Shown in pieces: positions 5,112 through 61,468 of a stretch of 64,000 nt of DNA. How positions within the stretch are numbered: the stretch's first letter is position 1; each line of letters begins with the position of its first letter. The stretch is from Cocleimonas flava. GTDB lineage: Bacteria > Pseudomonadota > Gammaproteobacteria > Thiotrichales > Thiotrichaceae. Below the pieces are notes generated by a model that saw nothing but the letters and a program-made list of their open reading frames with translations, was not told the DNA's origin and made no database searches. The stretch lies in NCBI RefSeq assembly GCF_004339015.1, contig NZ_SMFQ01000002.1, positions 745,351-809,350 on the forward strand, in the 5' to 3' direction. Both the position numbers and the translations under genes were made by a program.

Positions 5112-5140
5112 GGCACCCCCCTACTTTGAGGGGCTTTTTT
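5112..5140 (+). repeat. Dispersed C-rich repeat, copy 1
   Basis: Core CACCCCCCTACTT, then TGAGGGGC and a run of six T. CCCC and GGGG can pair here, so this copy looks like a small terminator, but its T-run is on the + strand while both flanking genes (nadC, pntAA) are transcribed on the - strand. It therefore cannot terminate nadC. Confidence 0.85.
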
Positions 5141-10211: not shown

Positions 10212-10238
10212 GCCACCCCCCTACTTTGGGGCACTTTT
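10212..10238 (+). repeat. Dispersed C-rich repeat, copy 2
   Basis: GCC-ACCCCCCTACTTTGGGGCA followed by TTTT. CCCC/GGGG pairs across a TACTTT loop, and the T-run is on the same strand as the gene ending 25 bases upstream, so this copy could work as its terminator. Confidence 0.85.
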
Positions 10239-10308: not shown

Positions 10309-12141
10309 TCAAGCAGGATATAAAGGCTTGAGTCCATTTTGTTTCTGAGGCAGAGGAACAGGCTTTCGATAAAGTCCTTCAATCACTAACTTATCCAATT
10401 CACTGCCATCCCAATCGCTTGAATCAGCTGAGTACAAACTCTTTTCAAGCGCTTCTATTACTTCGCGCCCTTTTCCTAGTGCTTGCGCAAGAATACCCAG
10501 ATTTTGAATGGATTGATCATTCCATTGCGCTCTAACCAATTTGAGCAAGAGCCGTGCAGCCATATGCTTATCGTTTGATCTGCATGCTTCTGTAAGCGAT
10601 GTTTTTAGTGCCTCCACATCTACCAGTTGAACAGCCTTTTTCGGTTCCGCTTCTAAACTTTTTGCCTTACTTGTGCGCTTTTTAAAGCCAAACACCACAA
10701 ACAAAATTGCCATCAAAGCCAACAACAATAGCACTAGTGTTTTCCAACCCCAAATTTCAGGAGTCTCAGTAGCATCTGTCTGCCCGGTTATATTTTGCTC
10801 GGTTTCGTTTTCTGTGGTTTCAGCATTTATACCTGCTGATGTTTCTGCGCTATTGCTATTTTCACTTACTGCTGCTGGATTGCCCGCAACCGTTAAATCC
10901 CATTCTGGTAGGGTAAAAGTCTTCTTTACTTTATTTTTAACATCCCACCAATCCACATTTATCTCAGGAATGGTGACTTTGCCTGCTTTGCCTGGAATAT
11001 AGTTGATGTCAATCTGTCGAATACCATAAATGGTGTTTCCATCATTTGGCGTTTCTGATTTTGCCTGATCGGTATAAACCTTCATCCCAACAGGTTTAGA
11101 TATATTGATATCCGGGATTTGCGAGCTTGCCAAACCTTTGACTTGAAGAATAAGCTTTCTGGTAACGGGCTCACCCACTTTGAGTTCAGGTGGAGACTCT
11201 GCCCAGCTATCAGTCATCAACAACTCTTCAGCAGGCAACCAGGCATCTCCTTTGAAACTGCTTGGCACTGGGAGCACATTAACGTCGATAGCTTCACCAC
11301 TGATACTAAATGGACGGCTTGGTCCTAATGAACGACGACCAAAAAATTCATCAAAAGGCGTATTGAAAAATGGATTTCTATTTTGCCCCCCAAAAAACTG
11401 ATTGAGCATATCTGTCTCATCCATACGTTTTCTAAGGTTTGGCGAGTCTCCGCCCGATAACGCAATTCGTCCTCGAACAATCGTCGGTGGAATATGCAAC
11501 ACACCACTTTTCTCAGGAGATATCACAAAGCGTTTTTCTACCACGACATACTTTTTACCTGCACGAACTACCTGATATTTTTTATCATTGCCTAACGCAC
11601 GAATATTGGCATTTTCAATCTGTGGCGAGAATACCTCTCCGGTTTGCATCGCCGAGTCGTAATAAAGCTTAACCGTATAGGGTATCTGCTGTTGCACATA
11701 GGTCTCTTTATTATCCAGATCAACCGATGATTCGACGAAAATATGTTTACTGGTTTCAGCCGCAACCTCTGGTGGAAGGTTGGCAATCGTCACTGTTAAA
11801 GGATCTGTTTTATCTGCGCCAACGGTAATTTCCGGAATAGTCAGTTTGCCTACCGCTTTCGGCATCAACTCAATCGTCCAGGTTTTTCTGAAACTGCGAT
11901 TTCCATTGATGATATTAATCTGCGAACTGGTACTACTACCCTGCACTTCAAAATCTTTTTGCAGTATCGATAAATCAGGCTGCGCATCATTATTCTGGTC
12001 ACTCTGAATACTCAGTGTAATCTGATCACCTTCGAAGACGCTCGATTGATTCAACGACGCTTTTACTGCTGCTTGCGCAGGCAGATTAACTAACATCATT
12101 AAAGCTAGTAACAGTGACGTTATTGATATCTGGAATTTCAT
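10309..12141 (-). CDS. batD: BatD family protein (oxygen/envelope tolerance)
   Basis: Last gene of the Bat operon. From the ATG at 12141 (overlapping the batB stop as TAATG) it has a signal peptide ending near AQAA, then a large periplasmic region of immunoglobulin-like segments typical of BatD (SLNQSSVFEGDQITLSI at the start), a Ser/Thr/Asn/Glu-rich linker, one membrane helix (TLVLLLLALMAILFVVFGF) and a cytoplasmic tail of about 100 residues. About 610 residues, in the family range. An upstream TTG at 12147 is open but unnecessary. BatD is proposed to work with the VWA proteins of the same operon at the inner membrane; its biochemical role is not established. Confidence 0.88.
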   Translation of the reverse strand: MKFQISITSLLLALMMLVNLPAQAAVKASLNQSSVFEGDQITLSIQSDQNNDAQPDLSILQKDFEVQGSSTSSQINIINGNRSFRKTWTIELMPKAVGKLTIPEITVGADKTDPLTVTIANLPPEVAAETSKHIFVESSVDLDNKETYVQQQIPYTVKLYYDSAMQTGEVFSPQIENANIRALGNDKKYQVVRAGKKYVVVEKRFVISPEKSGVLHIPPTIVRGRIALSGGDSPNLRKRMDETDMLNQFFGGQNRNPFFNTPFDEFFGRRSLGPSRPFSISGEAIDVNVLPVPSSFKGDAWLPAEELLMTDSWAESPPELKVGEPVTRKLILQVKGLASSQIPDINISKPVGMKVYTDQAKSETPNDGNTIYGIRQIDINYIPGKAGKVTIPEINVDWWDVKNKVKKTFTLPEWDLTVAGNPAAVSENSNSAETSAGINAETTENETEQNITGQTDATETPEIWGWKTLVLLLLALMAILFVVFGFKKRTSKAKSLEAEPKKAVQLVDVEALKTSLTEACRSNDKHMAARLLLKLVRAQWNDQSIQNLGILAQALGKGREVIEALEKSLYSADSSDWDGSELDKLVIEGLYRKPVPLPQKQNGLKPLYPA

Positions 12142-14174
12142 TACCAAGGTTGCTCCGAATTATCTATATTTCCGTTACGTTGTTGATACTGACTTCTAAA
12201 TTTCCTTCTGAGTAAGCCGCCCGGATCATCGGGTATACGTCTTAACCATTGTTCCGCAGCCATTTTCTCTTCTTCTGTCAGATCATCGGCTGTTTCGTTA
12301 CTTCCTTGTTTTGCAGCTTTTTGTTTTGCTTGCTCGTCGAGCTCTTGCTGGCTTTTTTCCTGCCCTTTTTCTGCTGAAGCATCGTCTTGTTGCTGATCTT
12401 CTGGCTGTCCTTCTTTTTCTCCTTTCTGGTCTGCGTTTTGATCGTTTTGATTTTGCTGATCAGCTTGTTTACTGTCAGGGTCAGAAGCTTCGTCTTTCTG
12501 CTGCTCTTCATCTAATGCTTTATTCGCATCAGAAAACTGGTTTTTGTCACTTTTTTTCTGCTGATCGTCTTCACCCGATTTTTCAGACTTTTCTTTGCTG
12601 TCTTGTTGTTGCTGATCTTCCCCACTCTGGCTTTTTTCAGATGATTCCTGTCCTTGTTCAGATTTTTTCTGACCTTCCTCACCCTCTGAGTTCTGCTGGT
12701 CTTTTTGATCTTTCGACTCAGAATCACTCTGCGAATTATCTTCCGAGCTTTCCGTTGAATCCTCTTTGGATTCGTTTCCAGACTGTTTTTGCTCTTGTTG
12801 TTTCTTCAGCAATTCTTCAATCGCTTTTTTGTTTTGTTCAGCATCCGTCATATCAGGATTTAAAGAGAGCGCTTTTTCGTAAGATTTAATCGCCTCTTCG
12901 TACTTTTTTAACTTAGCCAGTGAATTGCCTTCGTTATAGCGCGCATCTGCACCTTTAGATTCTTTAAAGTTCTGCAATGCTTCTTCGTAATTACCTTGCT
13001 TATATTCGGCGGCTCCACGGCGCAATGGCTCTTTACTGAGATCTCTGGCTTTTTCGTATTGTTGACTTTTAAGAGCCTTGTCCGCTCGCTGCTCTTTATT
13101 TTGCGATAGGGTTGTCCAAAGCTCGTCTAAGCTAAATGCCATGACTGGTTGAGGTTGTAATAGCACCCCCCCACTTACAGCCACAAATGCAATATTCAAT
13201 AACCAGCCACGCCTAAAGGCCAACGATGCCAAAGGTAGCAGTAACAGCACGATAAGTGGACCGGTTGAATACCATTCTTCATTATTGATATCCTGTTCTT
13301 GCAAGGCGTTTTCAGTCGTATCATTTACCATCTTATGTTCGATTAACACTTGAGACAGGTCTTCATTATTGGCGCTAATTAAATGGTATTTACCACCGCC
13401 CTGCATGGCTAATTCAGTGAGTTTATCCGCTTCTAGCTTCACCAGAACATTATCGTTATTTCTAAACCTAAGCTCACCGCCCGCTTCTGTTCCAACGCCT
13501 AGAACGGATACGGCATGACCCGCATTTTTCAACTCTTTAACGGCTTCTATGGCGGCTGCGCTTTTGCTAACACCATCAGCAATCAGCAACACCTGACCCT
13601 TCATAATGCCCGACTGCTTGAATAATTCGTGCGCCTTTAATAAGCCTAAATCAGCTCGACTTCCCTGCGCTGGCATCAGTTGAGGCGTTAAAACTTTTAA
13701 CATGGATCGAATCGTTTCGGCATCTCGTGTCAGTGGCGAGGCAATAAATGCATCTCCGGCAAACACCACCAAACCTGTCTGGCCCTCTTCATCCATAGAG
13801 AGAATGTCTTCAATTTTAAACTTTGCTCTAGCTAGGCGACTGGGTTTTAAATCGTCCACCAGCATAGAGTTTGATAAATCTAATACCAATACTCTGGCGG
13901 CATTGGTTTGAAAAATTGGGCGAGGGATTTTTTCCCACACAGGATCAGCCAGAGCAATGACAGCAATTAACCAGCCCATGGCGATCAATGATTTAGCAAA
14001 CCGGTCTGAACCAGATTGCTTACCCTGAAGTAACACGGGCAATAAATTGGGATCAATAATTTTATCCCAGGCTTTTGATGATGAAGCCGATCGAAACCCT
14101 AAACCCAACATCAGCAAGAGAGGAATAAGTGCTAACAACCAAAGCGGCTGAGTAAAGTGAAATTGCTCTAACAT
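12141..14174 (-). CDS. BatB-type VWA protein fused to TPR (BatC-like) with long acidic low-complexity tail
   Basis: 677 residues: two N-terminal membrane helices, a von Willebrand factor A domain with the metal-site motif DLSNSM (about residue 98), a third hydrophobic pair near residues 310-350, then TPR repeats (about 370-460: YKQGNYEEALQNF, LKKYEEAIKSYEKALSLNP) and about 190 residues rich in Gln, Glu, Ser, Asp and Lys, ending in a short conserved tail (AAEQWLRRIPDDPGGLLR). This is BatB plus BatC in one chain, as in many proteobacteria. Start ATG overlaps the batA stop (TGATG). A copy of the dispersed repeat is embedded near residue 332 (AVSGGVLLQP). Confidence 0.88.
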   Translation of the reverse strand: MLEQFHFTQPLWLLALIPLLLMLGLGFRSASSSKAWDKIIDPNLLPVLLQGKQSGSDRFAKSLIAMGWLIAVIALADPVWEKIPRPIFQTNAARVLVLDLSNSMLVDDLKPSRLARAKFKIEDILSMDEEGQTGLVVFAGDAFIASPLTRDAETIRSMLKVLTPQLMPAQGSRADLGLLKAHELFKQSGIMKGQVLLIADGVSKSAAAIEAVKELKNAGHAVSVLGVGTEAGGELRFRNNDNVLVKLEADKLTELAMQGGGKYHLISANNEDLSQVLIEHKMVNDTTENALQEQDINNEEWYSTGPLIVLLLLPLASLAFRRGWLLNIAFVAVSGGVLLQPQPVMAFSLDELWTTLSQNKEQRADKALKSQQYEKARDLSKEPLRRGAAEYKQGNYEEALQNFKESKGADARYNEGNSLAKLKKYEEAIKSYEKALSLNPDMTDAEQNKKAIEELLKKQQEQKQSGNESKEDSTESSEDNSQSDSESKDQKDQQNSEGEEGQKKSEQGQESSEKSQSGEDQQQQDSKEKSEKSGEDDQQKKSDKNQFSDANKALDEEQQKDEASDPDSKQADQQNQNDQNADQKGEKEGQPEDQQQDDASAEKGQEKSQQELDEQAKQKAAKQGSNETADDLTEEEKMAAEQWLRRIPDDPGGLLRRKFRSQYQQRNGNIDNSEQPW
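13162..13184 (+). repeat. Dispersed C-rich repeat, copy 3, inside a coding sequence
   Basis: CACCCCCCCACTTACAGCC lies within the batB/TPR gene on the opposite strand. The usual TACTT is CACTT and the T-run is absent. Read in the gene it encodes Ser-Gly-Gly in the segment AVSGGVLL at the end of a membrane helix. Confidence 0.55.
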
Positions 14175-15199
14175 CAGATCACTTCCTTGGGCTGAACAGG
14201 TTTTTTCTTTCTGAACCCTGGTAACAAAGACAGAAGTGGCGACAATAAACTGTTCATTAGGCTGCTACTAAACAACACAATTAAGCTGCTTAAGCCTAAG
14301 GCAATAGCCAGTGGATAATAAAAAAGCTCTTCTACTGGGCGATAACTCAACTCATCCTTTGAAACGGCTTCTATCTCGTCCAATGCCTTGTAAATTTTCA
14401 ATAAACCTTCAACGTCGTGAGCACGAAAATATTTGCCACCTGTCTTTTCTGCTATGGCTTGAAGCGTTGGCTCATCCAGATCTCGACTTCTCATAGAGCC
14501 TACACCAATGGTGTAAATTTTCACTTTTTCCTGAGCTGCCAAATCAGCAGCTTTTAGTGGTTCGACATTACCCGCCGTATTTGCACCATCCGTAAGAAGG
14601 ATCAGTACCCGGTTCTTCTCATCTTCATTTCTTAATCGTTTGACCGCGAGGCCTATCGCATCACCAATCGCAGTAGCTCTTCCTGCAAGACCTAAAAAAG
14701 ATTCTTCGAGGAGTGTTGAAACGGTCTTTCTATCAAAGGTTAACGGGGCTTGTAAATATGCCTGACTGCCAAACAAAATGAGGCCAATTCGGTCACCTTC
14801 ACGATTCTGAATAAAATCGCTGGCAACCGCTTTTACTGCAGAAATTCGCGTCATTCGTCTGCCAGAAATGATCATATCTGGCTCGTCCATCGACATCGAA
14901 ATATCAACAGACATCATCAGGCTACGACCTGTCACTGGTTGACGTACTGTATCGCCAACCAACTGTGGTCGTGCTGCCGCAGTCACTAAAAGTATCCAGC
15001 AAATAACCGCCAGCAATACTCGCGCCCAGGATGGACCTTTTTTGCTCTGTTGCAGACTGGGTGATAACTGCTTATAAAACGGGACTCTCAAAGCAGCACT
15101 GCTATTTACTGGCGCTGCTGGTAGAAAGTACCATGCGATCAACGGCAAAGGTAATATCCAGAAGACCCACAGCGAGGCAAATTCAATACTTGATAGCAT
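14174..15199 (-). CDS. batA: BatA-type VWA-domain membrane protein
   Basis: About 341 residues from the ATG at 15199. One membrane helix at each end flanks a von Willebrand A domain with the MIDAS motif DISMSMDEPD, the threonine in LQAPLTFDR and the aspartate in LLTDGANTAG. This is the BatA layout. The longer open frame starting at 15247 would add 16 residues (GSKWGGCG...) that are simply the translation of a dispersed repeat copy, so the inner ATG, 5 bases after the DUF4381 stop, is preferred. The operon places it with MoxR and DUF58, the usual chaperone-like partners. Confidence 0.88.
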   Translation of the reverse strand: MLSSIEFASLWVFWILPLPLIAWYFLPAAPVNSSAALRVPFYKQLSPSLQQSKKGPSWARVLLAVICWILLVTAAARPQLVGDTVRQPVTGRSLMMSVDISMSMDEPDMIISGRRMTRISAVKAVASDFIQNREGDRIGLILFGSQAYLQAPLTFDRKTVSTLLEESFLGLAGRATAIGDAIGLAVKRLRNEDEKNRVLILLTDGANTAGNVEPLKAADLAAQEKVKIYTIGVGSMRSRDLDEPTLQAIAEKTGGKYFRAHDVEGLLKIYKALDEIEAVSKDELSYRPVEELFYYPLAIALGLSSLIVLFSSSLMNSLLSPLLSLLPGFRKKKPVQPKEVI

Positions 15200-15204
15200 A
15201 TTAA

Positions 15205-15699
15205 TCAAACCACACCCCCCCCACTTTGAGCCGTTTTTTTGACCCAATGCCTTACCAGAGGAATAAATTCATCGATATTGAAATTCTGCACTTTTCCAGT
15301 CTGATAAGGCGCTTCGATGAGTATTCGACCTGCCCCCCGACTAAATCCATGCGTGTCTCCAGACTCATCCAGAAAGTGCAACCAATCCCCACCCGTGAGG
15401 CTTGCTATCTCTGAGCGTGGATAATAATTTACCGCCAATTGGCGCAATAATATATTCACTTCGGCCAGCGTTTCGCTACTTGGATCTTTTCTTAACTTAT
15501 TCTCTAGATCACTTAAGGTCTTGAGCAGTTCTCTTCTTCTTTTTCTTAATCGTTTACGTTTTCTTAATACGATAAACAGCCAGAATAAGGCTAAAAATAT
15601 CAGAGTAAATAATAACCACCACCCCATAGCCAGAGGCCACAAATCGGGGCTTCCGGGAAGATGTATGTCTTTCAGTTGTAAGGCTTCTTGCGGATCCAT
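15205..15699 (-). CDS. DUF4381 family membrane protein of the Bat operon
   Basis: 164 residues: a short N-terminal stretch (LKDIHLPGSPDLWPLAMGWW), one membrane helix (WLLFTLIFLALFWLFIVL), a strongly basic patch (RKRKRLRKRRRELL) and a cytoplasmic domain. This is the DUF4381 protein always found between DUF58 and the VWA gene in proteobacterial Bat loci; function unknown. The start codon follows the DUF58 stop directly. The last residues (KKTAQSGGGVV) are encoded by a dispersed repeat copy, so its C-terminus appears to have been replaced or extended by that element. Confidence 0.85.
   Translation of the reverse strand: MDPQEALQLKDIHLPGSPDLWPLAMGWWLLFTLIFLALFWLFIVLRKRKRLRKRRRELLKTLSDLENKLRKDPSSETLAEVNILLRQLAVNYYPRSEIASLTGGDWLHFLDESGDTHGFSRGAGRILIEAPYQTGKVQNFNIDEFIPLVRHWVKKTAQSGGGVV
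15211..15240 (+). repeat. Dispersed C-rich repeat, copy 4, at the 3' end of the DUF4381 gene
   Basis: CAC, eight C in total then ACTTTGAGCCG and seven T. On the - strand it supplies the final codons of the DUF4381 protein and its stop lies just beyond. Here the two arms do not pair well, yet the core is retained. Confidence 0.75.
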
Positions 15700-16827
15700 T
15701 TACGCAACCTTGCTGTTATTTGATGTGCGGCTTGCGTTGGTAGATTTAGTGGAAGTCACCCCCCCACTTATAGGCGTTTTTTCCTGTGTACTTTCTTGCG
15801 CCTTTCCTTCTGAATGAACATCCAGCGACGAACTCATCGGCTTTCTTCTTTTGCTATTGCCAAAGTTACGTTGCAGTTCTAGCAAGACATCATCCGCGGT
15901 TGATAGCTGTATCAACGAAAGATTATATTTACGGGCAAGTTGTTGAATATCCTGATGATGCTGGCTAATAAACTCACGAAAATCCTCTCGGCCTTTTTTA
16001 GATCGGGTATTTAACATTCCTGTGTCTTCTCCATTAGTGATTGCATAACGCGCTGGTGGCGGAGGAACCATTTCCAGAGGATCAACAACTTGTATCAACT
16101 GTATATCACTATGACGCGAAATAAACTGAATGTGGTTTGCGGTATCCTGATCGATATCGTAGAAATCGCTTATCAAGAAAACCAGCGACCCGGGGCGAGC
16201 AATACGTCTTAAGCGTTTAAGCTCATCATTCAAACTGGTGTGGCTTTGCTCTGTGGATAAACCTTGCACTGGATCACTGTGTTTAACCAATTCACGGATT
16301 AGCTGTAGCACACCACGTTTACCGGTTTTGGGCGGTAATTCGTGATGGCTGGAATTGATAATTAACGCGCCGATTCTATCGCCACGAGAGGCCACCGACC
16401 AGGCAATTAGAGTTGCAGCTTTGGCGGCAACGACTGACTTCAATGATTTAATTGAGCCAAAAAACATACCGGGATTGAAATCGACCAACAACACCACTGG
16501 GCGTTCTCGTTCTTCTTGATACAATTTTGTATGCGGCTGGCCAGCACGGGCTGTGACACGCCAGTCCATATTGCGGATATCATCGCCCGCCTGATAAATT
16601 CTTGATTCTTGATAATCCATTCCACGACCGCGAAATGAAGAATGATGGGTTCCGGTAGTCGATGATCGCGCGTAGCTACGACGGCTCATATCCAGTTTAT
16701 GTGCTTGTTGCTGTAAGCTAATCAATTCTTTGGCAGTAATGTGCGTTCCTGTACCTACAAGCGCACTTTCAACCTGTTCTGCTTCAGAACGTTTGAGACC
16801 TTGAAACCAGCGGTTAAGCAAACTCAT
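15700..16827 (-). CDS. DUF58 domain protein (VWA-like) of the Bat operon
   Basis: 375 residues. The DUF58 signature RGRGMDYQESRIYQAGDDIRNMDWR lies near residue 68, followed by a VWA-like core with VVLLVDFNPGMF and FLISDFYD. It is thought to act with the MoxR AAA ATPase next door. The C-terminal 45 residues (SSSLDVHSEGKAQESTQEKT onward) are polar and look disordered; within them KTPISGGVTS is encoded by a dispersed repeat copy. The gene starts 2 bases after the moxR stop and abuts DUF4381. Confidence 0.88.
   Translation of the reverse strand: MSLLNRWFQGLKRSEAEQVESALVGTGTHITAKELISLQQQAHKLDMSRRSYARSSTTGTHHSSFRGRGMDYQESRIYQAGDDIRNMDWRVTARAGQPHTKLYQEERERPVVLLVDFNPGMFFGSIKSLKSVVAAKAATLIAWSVASRGDRIGALIINSSHHELPPKTGKRGVLQLIRELVKHSDPVQGLSTEQSHTSLNDELKRLRRIARPGSLVFLISDFYDIDQDTANHIQFISRHSDIQLIQVVDPLEMVPPPPARYAITNGEDTGMLNTRSKKGREDFREFISQHHQDIQQLARKYNLSLIQLSTADDVLLELQRNFGNSKRRKPMSSSLDVHSEGKAQESTQEKTPISGGVTSTKSTNASRTSNNSKVA
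15755..15782 (+). repeat. Dispersed C-rich repeat, copy 5, inside the DUF58 gene
   Basis: GTCACCCCCCCACTTATAGGCG plus six T, a full-length copy with T-run, lying 55 bases before the end of the DUF58 reading frame on the opposite strand. Translated in frame as KTPISGGVT within a non-conserved tail. Confidence 0.8.
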
Positions 16828-22091: not shown

Positions 22092-22907
22092 ATGAAAGAC
22101 ACCCTCCTACTTATAGCGGTTGCTCCGAATGGCGCAAGAAAACTAAAAACAGATCATCCGCAGATTCCGTTAAATGCAGAAGAGCTATCAGAAACAGCAT
22201 TGAATTGTGCTGCGGCTGGCGCTTCGATGATTCATTTACACGTAAGAGATGAAAACAATCGACACAGCCTATCTGTCGATGCCTACAAAGAAGCGATACA
22301 AGAAATACAAAAAGCAGAACCTAATATCTTCATACAAGTAACTTCAGAAGCGGTTGGCATTTACTCTGCCGAACAGCAATTTGAAATGATTCACGCACTC
22401 AAACCCAATGCGGTATCGATTGGACTCAGGGAGATACGAGATTTAGACGAACACATCATTACTGATCACTTTCACAAAATGCGAGAGGCAGAGACATTTC
22501 CCCAGTTGATTCTCTATAACGACCATGATTTAAACATGTATTACGATTGGGTAAAAAGAAAAGTCATTCCTGGAAAGGCTTACCCTATTCTTTTAGTGAT
22601 CGGAAAAGAAACCCCTGAAGGATCTTTTGACAACAGCGTTCTTACCGCTGAAATCACCGACAAGCTACCTGCAGCAAGCTGGATGATTTGCGCATTTGGT
22701 CCTAATGAATACCCTGCAGGACAATTAGCGACTAAGTTAGGAGGTCACATAAGACTCGGTTTTGAGAACAATTGCGAATTAGCTAACGGAAGTATTGCAA
22801 AAAACAATGCTGAACTGATCTCACAAATGGTAAATTACTTGGCTTCTGAAAACATCGCTGTTGCCAACTATCAACAAGCGATAGAAATAATGAGGCCAGA
22901 TTGGTAA
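22092..22907 (+). CDS. Beta-keto acid cleavage enzyme (BKACE, DUF849)
   Basis: 271 residues. BKACE enzymes, founded by 3-keto-5-aminohexanoate cleavage enzyme of lysine fermentation, condense a beta-keto acid with acetyl-CoA and release acetoacetate plus a new CoA ester. Zinc-binding histidines are seen in MIHLHVRDENNRH (about residues 46-52), with FIQVTSEAVG, the NDHD block and the C-terminal RLGFENNCELANG. The product acetoacetate is exactly the substrate of the next gene, whose start overlaps this stop (TAATG). The R group of the keto acid cannot be read from sequence by eye. Confidence 0.88.
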   Translation: MKDTLLLIAVAPNGARKLKTDHPQIPLNAEELSETALNCAAAGASMIHLHVRDENNRHSLSVDAYKEAIQEIQKAEPNIFIQVTSEAVGIYSAEQQFEMIHALKPNAVSIGLREIRDLDEHIITDHFHKMREAETFPQLILYNDHDLNMYYDWVKRKVIPGKAYPILLVIGKETPEGSFDNSVLTAEITDKLPAASWMICAFGPNEYPAGQLATKLGGHIRLGFENNCELANGSIAKNNAELISQMVNYLASENIAVANYQQAIEIMRPDW

Positions 22908-26908: not shown

Positions 26909-26938
26909 GCCACCCCCCTACTTTAGAGGGCTTTTTTT
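26909..26938 (+). repeat. Dispersed C-rich repeat, copy 6
   Basis: GCCACCCCCCTACTTTAGAG then GGC and seven T. It lies directly behind a complete terminator, where a second terminator is unnecessary. Confidence 0.85.
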
Positions 26939-29715: not shown

Positions 29716-29743
29716 AAAAAAGCCTTGTAAGTAGGGGGGTGGC
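29716..29743 (-). repeat. Dispersed C-rich repeat, copy 7
   Basis: On the - strand: GCCACCCCCCTACTTACAAG, GC and six T. It is oriented as a terminator for transcripts arriving from tauE/ftsX, and lies 50 bases upstream of the clpB heat-shock promoter. Confidence 0.85.
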
Positions 29744-33590: not shown

Positions 33591-33610
33591 GGCACCCCCT
33601 ACTTACAATG
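33591..33610 (+). repeat. Dispersed C-rich repeat, copy 8 (partly decayed)
   Basis: GGCACCCCCTACTTACAATG: one C is missing from the run and the T-run is absent, although TTATT follows. It lies 30 bases behind the double-thioredoxin gene. Confidence 0.65.
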
Positions 33611-40520: not shown

Positions 40521-40547
40521 AAAAACGCCCCAAAGTAGGGGGGTGCC
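40521..40547 (-). repeat. Dispersed C-rich repeat, copy 9
   Basis: On the - strand: GGCACCCCCCTACTTTGGGGCG and a T-run that reaches the rsmD stop codon. It is oriented as a terminator for the convergent hypothetical gene ending at 40586. Confidence 0.85.
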
Positions 40548-43629: not shown

Positions 43630-43658
43630 AAAAAACCCTTTATAAGTAGGGGGGTGCC
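43630..43658 (-). repeat. Dispersed C-rich repeat, copy 10, in a divergent leader
   Basis: On the - strand: GGCACCCCCCTACTTATAAAGG then G and six T, 32 bases upstream of the DUF218 start and oriented so that transcripts of that gene could run through it. A complete terminator here would be an attenuator. Confidence 0.85.
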
Positions 43659-45282: not shown

Positions 45283-45311
45283 GACACCCCCCTACTTTAG
45301 GACACTTTTTT
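45283..45311 (+). repeat. Dispersed C-rich repeat, copy 11a (left arm of palindrome)
   Basis: GACACCCCCCTACTTTAGGA then CAC and six T. It abuts copy 11b tail to tail and lies 19 bases after the DUF899 stop. Confidence 0.9.
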
Positions 45312-45340
45312 AAAAAAGTGCCCTAAAGTAGGGGGGTGTC
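45312..45340 (-). repeat. Dispersed C-rich repeat, copy 11b (right arm of palindrome)
   Basis: The reverse complement of copy 11a with one mismatch (A to G in the segment after TACTTT). Together the arms form a 58-bp palindrome between the convergent DUF899 and fadA genes, which can act as a strong bidirectional terminator. Confidence 0.9.
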
Positions 45341-48776: not shown

Positions 48777-48807
48777 GTCACCCCCCCTACTTACAGCCGT
48801 TTTTTTG
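48777..48807 (+). repeat. Dispersed C-rich repeat, copy 12, between divergent genes
   Basis: GTCACCCCCCCTACTTACAGC then CG and seven T. It has seven C instead of six. It sits between the fadB and thioesterase starts, where no transcript should need a terminator. Confidence 0.85.
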
Positions 48808-49431: not shown

Positions 49432-49459
49432 AAAAAAGCCCTCCTAAGTAGGGGGGTGT
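49432..49459 (-). repeat. Dispersed C-rich repeat, copy 13
   Basis: On the - strand: CACACCCCCCTACTTAGGAG then GGC and six T. It starts directly after the thioesterase stop and precedes glyQ. Both genes are on the + strand, so this copy points the wrong way to terminate either. Confidence 0.85.
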
Positions 49460-50520: not shown

Positions 50521-52595
50521 TGTCAGATACAGCAAACGCAAACCTACTGATTGAAATCGGTACTGAAGAACTTCCTCCAAAAGCACTGAAAAAATTATCA
50601 GAAGCATTCACTTCTGGCGTGGTTGCTGGTTTAAAAGAAGCCTCTTTAGAAGCTGAGGAAGTGATTTCTTATGCTGCGCCTAGACGTCTAGCGGTATTAC
50701 TCAAGAACATTCCGGTAAAACAGGAAGATCAATCGGTTGAACGCAAAGGTCCGGCGAAAAAAGCAGCATTCGATGCGGATGGCAATCCAACAAAAGCGGT
50801 TGAAGGTTTCGCACGTTCTTGTGGTGTTACTGCATTTGATCTAGAAGAAATTGAAACTCCAAAAGGTATCTGGTTAGTTTTTCGTCAAGATGTTGCGGGC
50901 AAAGCGACTAGCGAATTAGTGCCAGAAATCGTCAATAAAACACTGGCAAAACTACCAATACCAAAGCGTATGCGTTGGGGTAGTAGCGATATCGAATTTG
51001 TTCGTCCGGTACACTGGATTGTGATGATGCTCGGTAGCGATGTTATCGACGGTGAAGTGCTTGGCATTCAATCAGGCAAGCAAACCTTCGGCCATCGTTT
51101 CCATCACCCTGAAGCTATTACGATTAATTCTGCCGAAAGCTACGCGCAACAGTTACACGATGAAGGTCATGTAATTGCATCGTTCGAAGATCGTCGCGCT
51201 GAAGTGCGTAAACAAGCCGAAGAAAGTGCCCAAAAGTTGGGGGGTGTCGCGCATATTGAAGATGGATTACTCGACGAAGTCACGGCTTTGATCGAATTAC
51301 CTATTGCAGTCAGCGGTAGCTTTGGTGAAGAGTTCCTGGAAGTGCCTCAGGAATGTTTGATCACCAGTATGCAAGACCATCAGAAATACTTCCCCGTGGT
51401 TGATAGCAACGGCACATTGATGCCTTACTTTATTACCACCAGTAATATCAAAAGCTCGAATCCAGCTGCGGTTAGTCAGGGAAATGAGCGTGTAATCCGC
51501 CCTCGTTTTGCGGATGCTAAATTCTTCTGGGATCAGGACTTAAAAGTAAAACTTGAATCACGCAGAGATGCGACCAAGAAAATCGTGTTCCAGCAAAAAC
51601 TGGGAACGCTCTATGAAAAAACTGATCGTGTCTCTAAACTTGCGGGTTATATTGCCGGAGAAATTGGTGCAGATCAGCAATTAGCTATGCGCGCCGCTGA
51701 ATTATCTAAATGTGACCTACTCAGCAATATGGTTCAGGAATTCGCTGAACTTCAAGGCATTATGGGCAGCTACTATGCGAAGCACGATGGTGAAGATGCT
51801 GGCGTTGCTGCGGCAATGCAAGAGCAATATCAACCCGGTTTTGCGGGAGATGTGATTCCGGCAGGCGAAGTCGGCAAAGTGCTGTCACTGGCCGATAGAA
51901 CGGATACATTGATGGGTATATTCGCTATCGACATGAAGCCAACGGGCAGTAAAGATCCGTTCTCTTTGCGTCGTGCGGCTCTGGGTTTACTTAGAATCAT
52001 TATCGAAGGTGATCTAAATCTAGACCTGAAATCGATGTTGACTGAAGCGGCTAAAGGCCTGTCGGATAAAGTCGATGCAACACCAGCAATTGACGATACC
52101 TTTGCCTTCATCATGGAGCGTCTAAAAGCGTATTATCAGGATCAGGGTATTAGCGCCGATACAGTAAACGCGGTTGCCAGCTTGAGCCCAAGTCATCCAT
52201 TAGATTTTGATCAACGTGTTAAAGCGGTTGCCGAGTTCGCAAAAATGCCAGAATCAGAATCGTTAGCTGCAGCAAACAAACGTATCAGCAACATCTTGAA
52301 GAAAGTTGAAACTGAGATACCTGCTGAGGTCGACCAGTCATTACTCAACGAGCCACAAGAAAAAGCGTTGTTTGATGCAATTAGCGCACAGCAAATGATC
52401 GTACAGCCATTATTTGCCAATGGTGATTACTCAGAAGCACTGTCATCGCTTGCAGTATTGCGCGAAGACGTCGATAACTTCTTCGACAACATTATGGTTA
52501 TGGATGATAACGAAGCGCTAAAGAACAATCGATTAGCGTTGTTATCACAATTACGTAATTTGTTTTTAGACGTTGCCGATCTGTCTAGACTTTAA
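50520..52595 (+). CDS. glyS: Glycyl-tRNA synthetase beta subunit
   Basis: 691 residues: N-terminal LLIEIGTEELPPKALKKLSE, B3/B4-like central domain, an HD-like domain and the C-terminal DALR anticodon-binding segment (NNRLALLSQLRNLFLDVADLSRL at the end). It supplies tRNA binding. The ATG overlaps the glyQ stop. Within it AAGTTGGGGGGTG resembles the reverse of the dispersed repeat core, but it encodes the conserved KLGG and is treated as chance. Confidence 0.97.
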   Translation: MSDTANANLLIEIGTEELPPKALKKLSEAFTSGVVAGLKEASLEAEEVISYAAPRRLAVLLKNIPVKQEDQSVERKGPAKKAAFDADGNPTKAVEGFARSCGVTAFDLEEIETPKGIWLVFRQDVAGKATSELVPEIVNKTLAKLPIPKRMRWGSSDIEFVRPVHWIVMMLGSDVIDGEVLGIQSGKQTFGHRFHHPEAITINSAESYAQQLHDEGHVIASFEDRRAEVRKQAEESAQKLGGVAHIEDGLLDEVTALIELPIAVSGSFGEEFLEVPQECLITSMQDHQKYFPVVDSNGTLMPYFITTSNIKSSNPAAVSQGNERVIRPRFADAKFFWDQDLKVKLESRRDATKKIVFQQKLGTLYEKTDRVSKLAGYIAGEIGADQQLAMRAAELSKCDLLSNMVQEFAELQGIMGSYYAKHDGEDAGVAAAMQEQYQPGFAGDVIPAGEVGKVLSLADRTDTLMGIFAIDMKPTGSKDPFSLRRAALGLLRIIIEGDLNLDLKSMLTEAAKGLSDKVDATPAIDDTFAFIMERLKAYYQDQGISADTVNAVASLSPSHPLDFDQRVKAVAEFAKMPESESLAAANKRISNILKKVETEIPAEVDQSLLNEPQEKALFDAISAQQMIVQPLFANGDYSEALSSLAVLREDVDNFFDNIMVMDDNEALKNNRLALLSQLRNLFLDVADLSRL

Positions 52596-54452: not shown

Positions 54453-54774
54453 CTATTTTCTCTTTTATTAGTCGTGTTTCAGTCAAAATTATACAGTTAA
54501 ATAGCAAGAGTCAACCGATTCAAGATAAATGCTCAGAGCAATCTGATCATAGTCATGAGCGGCCTATTAATTGCATGCAAAGCTTATTCTGTAGGGCTTT
54601 TTGAGAACTCTGCTTATTTATTATACACCCCCCTACTTAGAGGCACTTTTTTTAATCACAGTAACGGAAAGTAAATTTTTTAAATGATCAGACTTTTACT
54701 ATCTATCTCTTTTTAGCAATTGATCATAAATGCTTTAATTTTTACCTTTTGATATGATCTAGTTTTAAAGCGCT
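54453..54774. other. Divergent intergenic region sseB / Dyp peroxidase
   Basis: 322 bases holding a full dispersed repeat (54625-54653) about midway; otherwise AT-rich with no clear gene. Promoters of both flanking genes are expected here, but I could not assign them. Confidence 0.5.
54625..54653 (+). repeat. Dispersed C-rich repeat, copy 14, between divergent genes
   Basis: ATACACCCCCCTACTTAGAG then GC and AC and seven T. Position between two gene starts rather than after a gene. Confidence 0.85.
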
Positions 54775-56247: not shown

Positions 56248-56584
56248 GGTTCACTCCTGTTATTTCTAATATGTATTTCCAAGAACCAATTCTAAGAAAT
56301 AATAGTATGCTTAAGTCACCCCCCTACTTATAGGCTGTTTTTTCTATATCAATGACGCTGGGGGTTATTGATAATTACAAACACAATATATCCAATTGAC
56401 TCATTGAAGCGTAATACAGTTGATACGCAGCTCGCTTACAAAACGGATGAAATAAATTTGATAAACAATAGTGCTAATATAAAACACCTCTGTAAAACGT
56501 TAAATACATTTACACTAAGCCTTACTTAACGGTATACGGCGCTTTACTGTAATACGATATTTAACTCATTCTGGATATATAACG
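56248..56584. other. Divergent intergenic region msrA / DUF302
   Basis: 337 bases; a dispersed repeat copy lies at 56315-56344. The remainder is AT-rich and has no recognisable gene. A possible -10 TATAAA-like sequence lies near the msrA side, not certain. Confidence 0.45.
56315..56344 (+). repeat. Dispersed C-rich repeat, copy 15, between divergent genes
   Basis: GTCACCCCCCTACTTATAGGC then TG and six T, 68 bases upstream of the msrA start on the opposite side from its coding strand. Confidence 0.85.
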
Positions 56585-57396: not shown

Positions 57397-57425
57397 GCCA
57401 CCCCCCTACTTTGAGGCATTTTTTT
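57397..57425 (+). repeat. Dispersed C-rich repeat, copy 16
   Basis: GCCACCCCCCTACTTTGAGGC then AT and seven T, 11 bases past the DksA-family stop and ending 23 bases before the rhodanese ATG. GCC/GGC pairing is possible, so it could be a terminator between two + genes. Confidence 0.85.
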
Positions 57426-61439: not shown

Positions 61440-61468
61440 GCCACCCCCCTACTTTGGGGCACTTTTTT
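61440..61468 (+). repeat. Dispersed C-rich repeat, copy 17
   Basis: GCCACCCCCCTACTTTGGGGC then AC and six T, 40 bases behind the HdrD-like gene. CCCC/GGGG pairing makes this a plausible terminator for the + transcript; a second, unrelated terminator follows. Confidence 0.85.

Follow-up and report, generated by a model that had tools for sequence, protein, structure and literature searches.

The Bat operon and its three word copies

The window analyzed here is a 64-kb stretch of DNA from the marine sulfur bacterium Cocleimonas flava (NCBI RefSeq assembly GCF_004339015.1, contig NZ_SMFQ01000002.1, positions 745,351 to 809,350), to which all coordinates refer, and it is part of a draft genome of 4.49 Mb in 10 contigs (hereafter G000). 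On its minus strand, a Bat operon carries three copies (copies 3, 4 and 5) of a short DNA word that is C-rich on the plus strand and G-rich on the coding strand. A preliminary description of this DNA had assigned the three copies to batB/TPR, the end of DUF4381 and the tail of DUF58, and their coordinates agree with the gene spans:

12141–14174, minus strand: BatB-like VWA and TPR protein, contains copy 3
13164–13176, plus strand (the C-rich strand): copy 3, CACCCCCCCACTT, inside batB/TPR; read as SGGV on the minus strand; no T-run
14174–15199, minus strand: BatA-like VWA protein (from an inner ATG), downstream of copy 4
15205–15699, minus strand: DUF4381 protein, contains copy 4
15213–15240, plus strand: copy 4, CACCCCCCCCACTT followed by TGAGCCG and T7 (core 15213–15226, with 8 C's), at the C-terminal end of DUF4381, just upstream of batA
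15700–16827, minus strand: DUF58 protein, contains copy 5
15757–15782, plus strand: copy 5, CACCCCCCCACTT followed by ATAGGCG and T6 (core 15757–15769), within the variable DUF58 tail

As had been described, all three copies share one frame on the G-rich strand and encode Ser-Gly-Gly there (SGG; VSGGVLL, QSGGGVV and ISGGVTS), all three have CACTT instead of TACTT, and the T-run is present in copies 4 and 5 and missing from copy 3. The tails that hold copies 4 and 5 are indeed tolerant, non-conserved C-termini (the DUF58 stretch is lineage-limited and the DUF4381 tail hypervariable). The DUF58 protein is 89% identical to its homologue in the Uncultured Cocleimonas sp. isolate 4-1410.

A dispersed 13-bp word and its dialects

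Copies 3, 4 and 5 are not special insertions but members of a dispersed, genome-wide 13-bp word that has an A-tract at a fixed distance. The 13-mer CACCCCCCTACTT occurs 721 times without mismatch across the 4.49 Mb (529 forward and 192 reverse) against 0 for the reversed-pattern control, which rules out a chance match, and its CACTT form CACCCCCCCACTT occurs in 158 copies, with 1 for the reversed control. The window itself holds 19 matches at ≤2 mismatches, where 0.96 are expected. In a first sample of ~790 kb, there were 129 exact copies and 45 with one mismatch, 21 of the latter being the T-to-C form. Read on the G-rich strand, the form in this species is A6-NN-GCCY-NW-AAGTAGGGGGGTG-N-CTTW; on the C-rich strand, the layout around 124 intergenic copies is WAAGN-core-WN-RGGC-NN-TTTTTT, with 8 further bases between the core and the T-tract, and at least 4 T in 5 stand at the T-tract place in 96.7% of 182 intergenic copies.

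Among 137 copies, mutual information exceeds that of shuffles by 0.42–0.56 bits for three adjacent position pairs and by ≤0.14 bits for the remaining pairs. For non-adjacent pairs the excess is ~0.10 bits at most (z up to ~5), and since these variable positions lack strong linkage, the copies form no clear subfamilies. Such dependence between adjacent bases would suit a protein that reads DNA steps; it argues against hairpin formation and against an origin of the copies from a few templates.

Placement was analyzed for 219 copies in 1.05 Mb, with genes assigned by a simple hexamer-based gene caller. The density per kb is 2.62 in convergent intergenic spaces, 1.08 in tandem spaces, 0.74 in divergent spaces and ~0.02 inside genes. 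Seven inverted pairs closer than 70 bp were found among these copies, and the spacing is slightly more even than random (coefficient of variation 0.86 for 62 copies in one contiguous piece). The claim that no coding copies exist outside the Bat operon failed at both scales: 21 of the 219 copies lie inside predicted genes, and the window has a further coding variant (51234–51246) as well as a copy at a gene start (22100–22112). For three coding copies within 2.62 kb, P is ~0.023 with the 21 coding copies placed randomly, a value uncorrected for the cluster having been picked out beforehand. Outside the Bat operon, the window contains the following copies:

5114–5126, plus strand: exact copy, intergenic
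10214–10226, plus strand: exact copy, intergenic, with convergent genes on either side
22100–22112, plus strand: degenerate copy CACCCTCCTACTT right where a predicted gene starts
26911–26923, plus strand: exact copy, intergenic (convergent)
29729–29741, minus strand: exact copy, intergenic
33593–33604, plus strand: variant CACCCCCTACTT, intergenic, without T-run
40533–40545, minus strand: exact copy, intergenic (convergent)
43644–43656, minus strand: exact copy, intergenic (divergent)
45285–45338, both strands: inverted pair of exact copies around a T tract and an A tract that adjoin each other, intergenic (convergent)
48779–48792, plus strand: copy CACCCCCCCTACTT, intergenic (divergent)
49446–49458, minus strand: exact copy, intergenic
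51234–51246, minus strand: variant CACCCCCCAACTT, coding, reads KLGGV inside a 692-codon predicted gene
54626–54638, plus strand: exact copy, intergenic (divergent)
56317–56329, plus strand: exact copy, intergenic (divergent)
57399–57411, plus strand: exact copy, intergenic
61442–61454, plus strand: exact copy, intergenic (convergent)

The inverted pair at 45285–45338 would fold into a strong terminator-like hairpin.

The word is retained between species. Of the 202 exact copies that the retrieved parts of G000 contain, 42 could be compared with an orthologous stretch of the sister species G007 (the remaining 160 were not judged). The core is present at 38 of these 42 comparable sites, at 36 of them exactly and at 2 with a shift in alignment position (7 C's in one case). 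Among the other sites, one has a single mismatch and three lack the core. The flanks of retained sites are often diverged and gapped. G007 carries all three Bat copies, its copy 5 having TACTT and its copy 4 having 7 C's.

We surveyed 57 relatives, namely 12 Cocleimonas genomes (several of them incomplete drafts, 80–100%) and 45 genomes of other genera. Exact copies of the word described above, here called dialect A, number 721 in G000, 777 in G007, 453 in G003, 388 in G011, 232 in G008 and 74 in G006, with at most 2 in each of the six other genus genomes and none in the 45 from other genera. In a class-wide sample of 369 genomes that included G000 as the sole congener, 7 of the 368 others had one copy each, and the extended form of the word had no match in viral contigs. 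The flanks vary among species with dialect A, for example AAAAGA-core-TT in G003 and AAAAGTA-core-TTT in G006. Copy densities in G003, G011 and G006 refer to stretches that were selected for containing copies. Through runs of six G in other members of the genus, we found two further dialects of similar layout. Dialect B, GGGGGGRTGGGTA, has 476 copies in G009, 375 in G002 and 28 in G010, and no more than 2 in any other genus genome; dialect C, AAAASAGGGGGGKKG, has 245 copies in G010, 16 in G002, 10 in G009, 6 in G001 and 4 in G004, and at most 2 in the rest of the genus and at most 1 in other genera. Among the matches listed, the dialect-C copies of G010 often stand as minus/plus inverted pairs ~53 bp apart, an arrangement that is REPIN-like or terminator-like. 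Dialects A, B and C are all scarce in G001, G004 and G005, and these genomes are therefore without an abundant word of the kind found here; no strong word emerged either when 331 kb of G004 were scanned for k-mers. The 13-mer TGAGACCTTTGCA occurs 8 times in these 331 kb (L251–L270) and is perhaps a transposon end.

Trees of the Bat proteins (9 genus species and 2 outgroups) and of ComEC (11 species) gave 100% support to the groups G000+G007+G003, G000+G007+G008+G011, G002+G009 and G001+G004. These supported clades match dialect A, dialect B and the near-absence of the word, with G006 and G010 unplaced. One site, the junction of DUF4381 and BatA, carries dialect A in the window, G007 and G003, dialect B (AAAAAAGGGGGGGATGGGTA) in G009 and G002 and a degenerate word in G006, and is empty in G010, G004 and G001; the dialect-C copy in the Bat operon of G010 lies at the BatA/BatB junction. 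The word at the end of DUF4381 (L093 7525, L094 6621, L095 1686, L096 7559) shares bases with the presumed batA ribosome-binding region and may thus affect batA translation. As judged from these genomes, the word is limited to a single genus, in which at least three largely exclusive dialects follow the supported clades.

Origin of the coding copies

The CACTT form is commoner among coding than among intergenic copies. In G000, it makes up 13 of 21 coding versus 20 of 198 intergenic copies (Fisher p 1.8e-7), and in G007 8 of 15 coding versus 5 of 113 intergenic copies (p 4.4e-6). On the G-rich strand, TACTT gives a stop in one frame and Ser-Arg in the SGG frame, and coding tolerance fits as the explanation of the shared CACTT. 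The SGG/SRG frame is used by 12 of the 21 coding copies, and the G-rich strand is the sense strand in 17 of the 21.

The preliminary description had proposed insertion into tolerant protein ends and an alignment with orthologues that lack the SGG segments. This alignment had a different outcome for each of the three proteins. First, BatB is mostly gapless at the SGG site. By tblastn, four of six copy-less orthologues (L094, L096, L097 and L098) align without a gap across it, while L092 has a one-residue gap beside the site and L099 aligns poorly; by MAFFT, L099 is gapless and the distant loci L101–L103 are three residues shorter there. Furthermore, batB of G009 and G002 contains a dialect-B copy at KKGGGGYH / KTGGGGYH, in the GGGxYH stretch of the VWA domain, where the window BatB has QGGGKYH and no word. 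Second, in DUF58 the SGG stretch of ~25 residues is found only in the window and G007; seven further species of the genus and eight more remote loci lack it. Because of this limited distribution, insertion is possible there, and the DUF58 tail copy may have arisen either by point mutation or by insertion. Third, the tail of DUF4381 is variable throughout, with Gly-rich residues near its end in several orthologues, and in G003 it has the motif in a different frame, read as VGGC.

Beyond the Bat operon, we compared five of the 21 coding copies, picked because they lie in recognizable enzymes (TsaB, LpxH, Tgt, FabD and an isochorismatase-like hydrolase), with the best PDB match of each, and all five were gapless. 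Insertion as a general mechanism is hence not supported. The gapless alignments of BatB and the enzymes, together with the dialect-B site in batB, indicate that coding copies are mostly in-place changes wherever homologous frames are comparable. By these alignments, point mutation at permissive sites, and not transposition, would be the main source of copies. One predicted protein of 1644 residues on contig 2 of G000 (L250), which we take to be RHS-like, has two copies in the SGG frame.

Candidate functions of the word

From the word with its fixed layout, its in-place origin in the compared genes, its retention and its dialects, we infer uptake, a receptor and a drive. Present throughout the genome, the word is probably recognized as double-stranded DNA and functions like the uptake signal sequence (USS) or DNA uptake sequence (DUS) of naturally competent bacteria. 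The proposed reader is a receptor with sequence-specific DNA binding, for which a minor type IV pilin of the competence apparatus is a plausible candidate; it would bind the G6 core together with the A-tract at its fixed distance, and fragments that bear the word would be taken up and recombined more often. Under this proposal, the preference would let copies made by point mutation spread and would restore decayed copies. Copies would settle most easily between genes, and inside genes in the least harmful frame and variant (SGG and CACTT), and shifts of the receptor between clades of the genus would give rise to the dialects.

With uptake sequences, the word shares a lineage-limited and extreme over-representation, an invariant core with looser flanks at fixed spacing, dialects congruent with clades, and inverted pairs. 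The USS of H. influenzae and the Pasteurellaceae has the consensus aAAGTGCGGTnrwttttnnnnnnrwtttw (PMC1939737), and the likeness extends to the short invariant core with AT-tracts at fixed spacing (PMC1939737, PMC7811141), the many copies and their accumulation by point mutation. USS copies in coding regions also prefer one orientation within reading frames (PMC2346458), closely spaced inverted pairs stand at gene ends (PMC7811141), and related species have different dialects, Hin and Apl (PMC12616744). The DUS of the Neisseriaceae is similar in its clade-specific dialects congruent with phylogeny, eight in number, and in its inverted pairs (PMC3630211). Unlike the USS, the Cocleimonas word has an unrelated six-G core, is mostly intergenic and strand-biased, shows at least three dialects in one genus and is known here from sequence; its core is unrelated to the DUS as well. 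Uptake sequences of this kind are described as known only from Neisseriaceae and Pasteurellaceae in PMC12616744, and our literature search returned nothing that links a DNA uptake sequence with Thiotrichales and nothing that contains the motif letters.

Competence genes are encoded in the genus (ComEA in 12/12, ComEC in 11/12 and GspH-family pilins in 12/12 genomes, in G000 at C1:567669–568004 and C1:573941–574321 among others), which is compatible with an uptake function. Several observations weigh against it. The competence genes do not separate motif-bearing from motif-poor members, and G003 (89% complete), the one genus member in which ComEC had no match, is rich in the motif. Controls such as E. 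coli are also matched by the ComEC and ComEA models, so that these matches are weak evidence of competence. G006 has the core of dialect A and is unplaced in the trees, so that its core may be ancestral or convergent. Genic copies are scarcer (21/219, ~10%, with ~90% intergenic), and the copy density is below that of H. influenzae. Lastly, the orientation of the word around the chromosome is not balanced, balance being a usual although non-defining trait of uptake sequences. For 68–81% of copies in all five motif-bearing species examined, the G-rich strand of the word coincides with the strand that is locally richer in G; other C5-6 runs of the same species were counted for comparison:

G000: word 159/217, other runs 196/307, Fisher p 0.023
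G007: word 94/128, other runs 83/154, Fisher p 0.0008
G003: word 30/37, other runs 24/39, Fisher p 0.08
G011: word 32/47, other runs 23/37, Fisher p 0.65
G006: word 32/46, other runs 83/155, Fisher p 0.06

The excess over other runs is significant only in G000 and G007. A receptor preference for one orientation would appear as a chromosomal orientation bias, as argued in PMC1939737, and in the light of this argument the observed strand bias is not the usual pattern of an uptake sequence. The bias is in part what a six-G word must show and in part unexplained.

Its unexplained part keeps alive, as an unlikely alternative, a polar chromosome-address motif whose reader would be a cytoplasmic protein of DNA processing or segregation and not a competence receptor, comparable to the FtsK-orienting polar sequences (KOPS) read by FtsK or to Chi read by RecBCD. 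The word resembles KOPS and Chi in being G-rich and strand-biased, its bias exceeds that of other C-runs in G000 and G007, and one-sided runs occur, for example 55:8 on contig 2 past 195 kb, counted within the stretches sampled. Unlike KOPS and Chi, it is longer, has a separate A-tract, is mostly intergenic with its highest density between convergent genes, and is replaced or nearly missing in half the genus. To our knowledge, FtsK and RecBCD are near-universal, which counts against such a reader. A six-G core follows the skew anyway and other C-runs are biased too; moreover, orientation and skew in G000 do not correlate over 20-kb pieces (r −0.10, p 0.48). Polarity was judged on draft sequence, as a skew-linked bias of 68–81%. 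A more far-reaching form of this idea, which we regard as improbable, is that the word represents a new class of polar chromosomal address and not, or not only, an uptake tag: its strand-specific reader would have changed its recognition letters at least two times in the genus, with the orthologous sites rewritten and the layout of A-tract plus G6 kept.

We consider it quite doubtful that the word is a mobile short repeat, of the repetitive extragenic palindromic (REP/REPIN) kind or like a miniature inverted-repeat transposable element (MITE), that is moved by a transposase and whose coding copies are insertions. Its copy number is high, and like REP/REPIN repeats with their RAYT transposases it is dispersed between genes, has GTAG on the G-rich strand, resembling REP 5' ends, and forms inverted pairs, including the minus/plus pairs ~53 bp apart listed for dialect C in G010; the DUF58 tail stretch limited to the window and G007 and four Y1 matches in G007 point the same way. 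On the other hand, the word lacks the hairpin and the clear subfamilies of REP/REPIN, and 5 of the 6 dialect-A genomes (G000, G003, G006, G008 and G011, several of them incomplete drafts) gave no match to the Y1 transposase (PF01797). The weak linkage between non-adjacent positions (≤ ~0.10 bits above shuffles), the sites that stay stable between species while their flanks diverge, the lack of Y1 matches in these five genomes and the gapless coding sites (5/5 of those chosen) led us to reject the view that the copies in general are mobile-element insertions.

That the copies form a family of RNA elements or intrinsic terminators is equally hard to sustain. A T-tract follows a GC-rich block, copies are densest between convergent genes, and the inverted pairs could form strong hairpins and may terminate transcription. 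Yet the covarying positions show no complementary-arm pattern in the 137 copies, and native 5' flanks fold no better than swapped ones (z −0.23 for the C-rich and +1.89 for the G-rich RNA). Tandem spaces hold 53 copies along the gene strand and 49 opposed to it, and 35 copies lie between divergent genes. We therefore rejected a hairpin or terminator function for isolated copies on these covariation, orientation and folding tests, and a known Rfam family for the lack of any match in the window at the gathering score.

Coding convergence, in which unrelated Ser-Gly-Gly codons would match by accident, is very improbable despite the Gly-rich residues near the end of DUF4381 in several orthologues: orthologues beyond the window and G007 do not share SGG at copies 3 and 5, contrary to what the preliminary description had named as the sign of convergence, the DNA word and not the peptide is kept under a changed frame (VGGC in G003), and the RGGC and T-tract letters that flank eight coding CACTT copies follow the intergenic consensus.

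The word accounts for odd Gly-rich stretches in the proteins that contain it. If the uptake reading is true, Cocleimonas would provide a third, unrelated case of uptake sequences, in environmental sulfur bacteria, and the marking of self-DNA would evolve repeatedly outside the two families. The three dialects within one genus would then make the joint change of a receptor and hundreds of sites directly testable.

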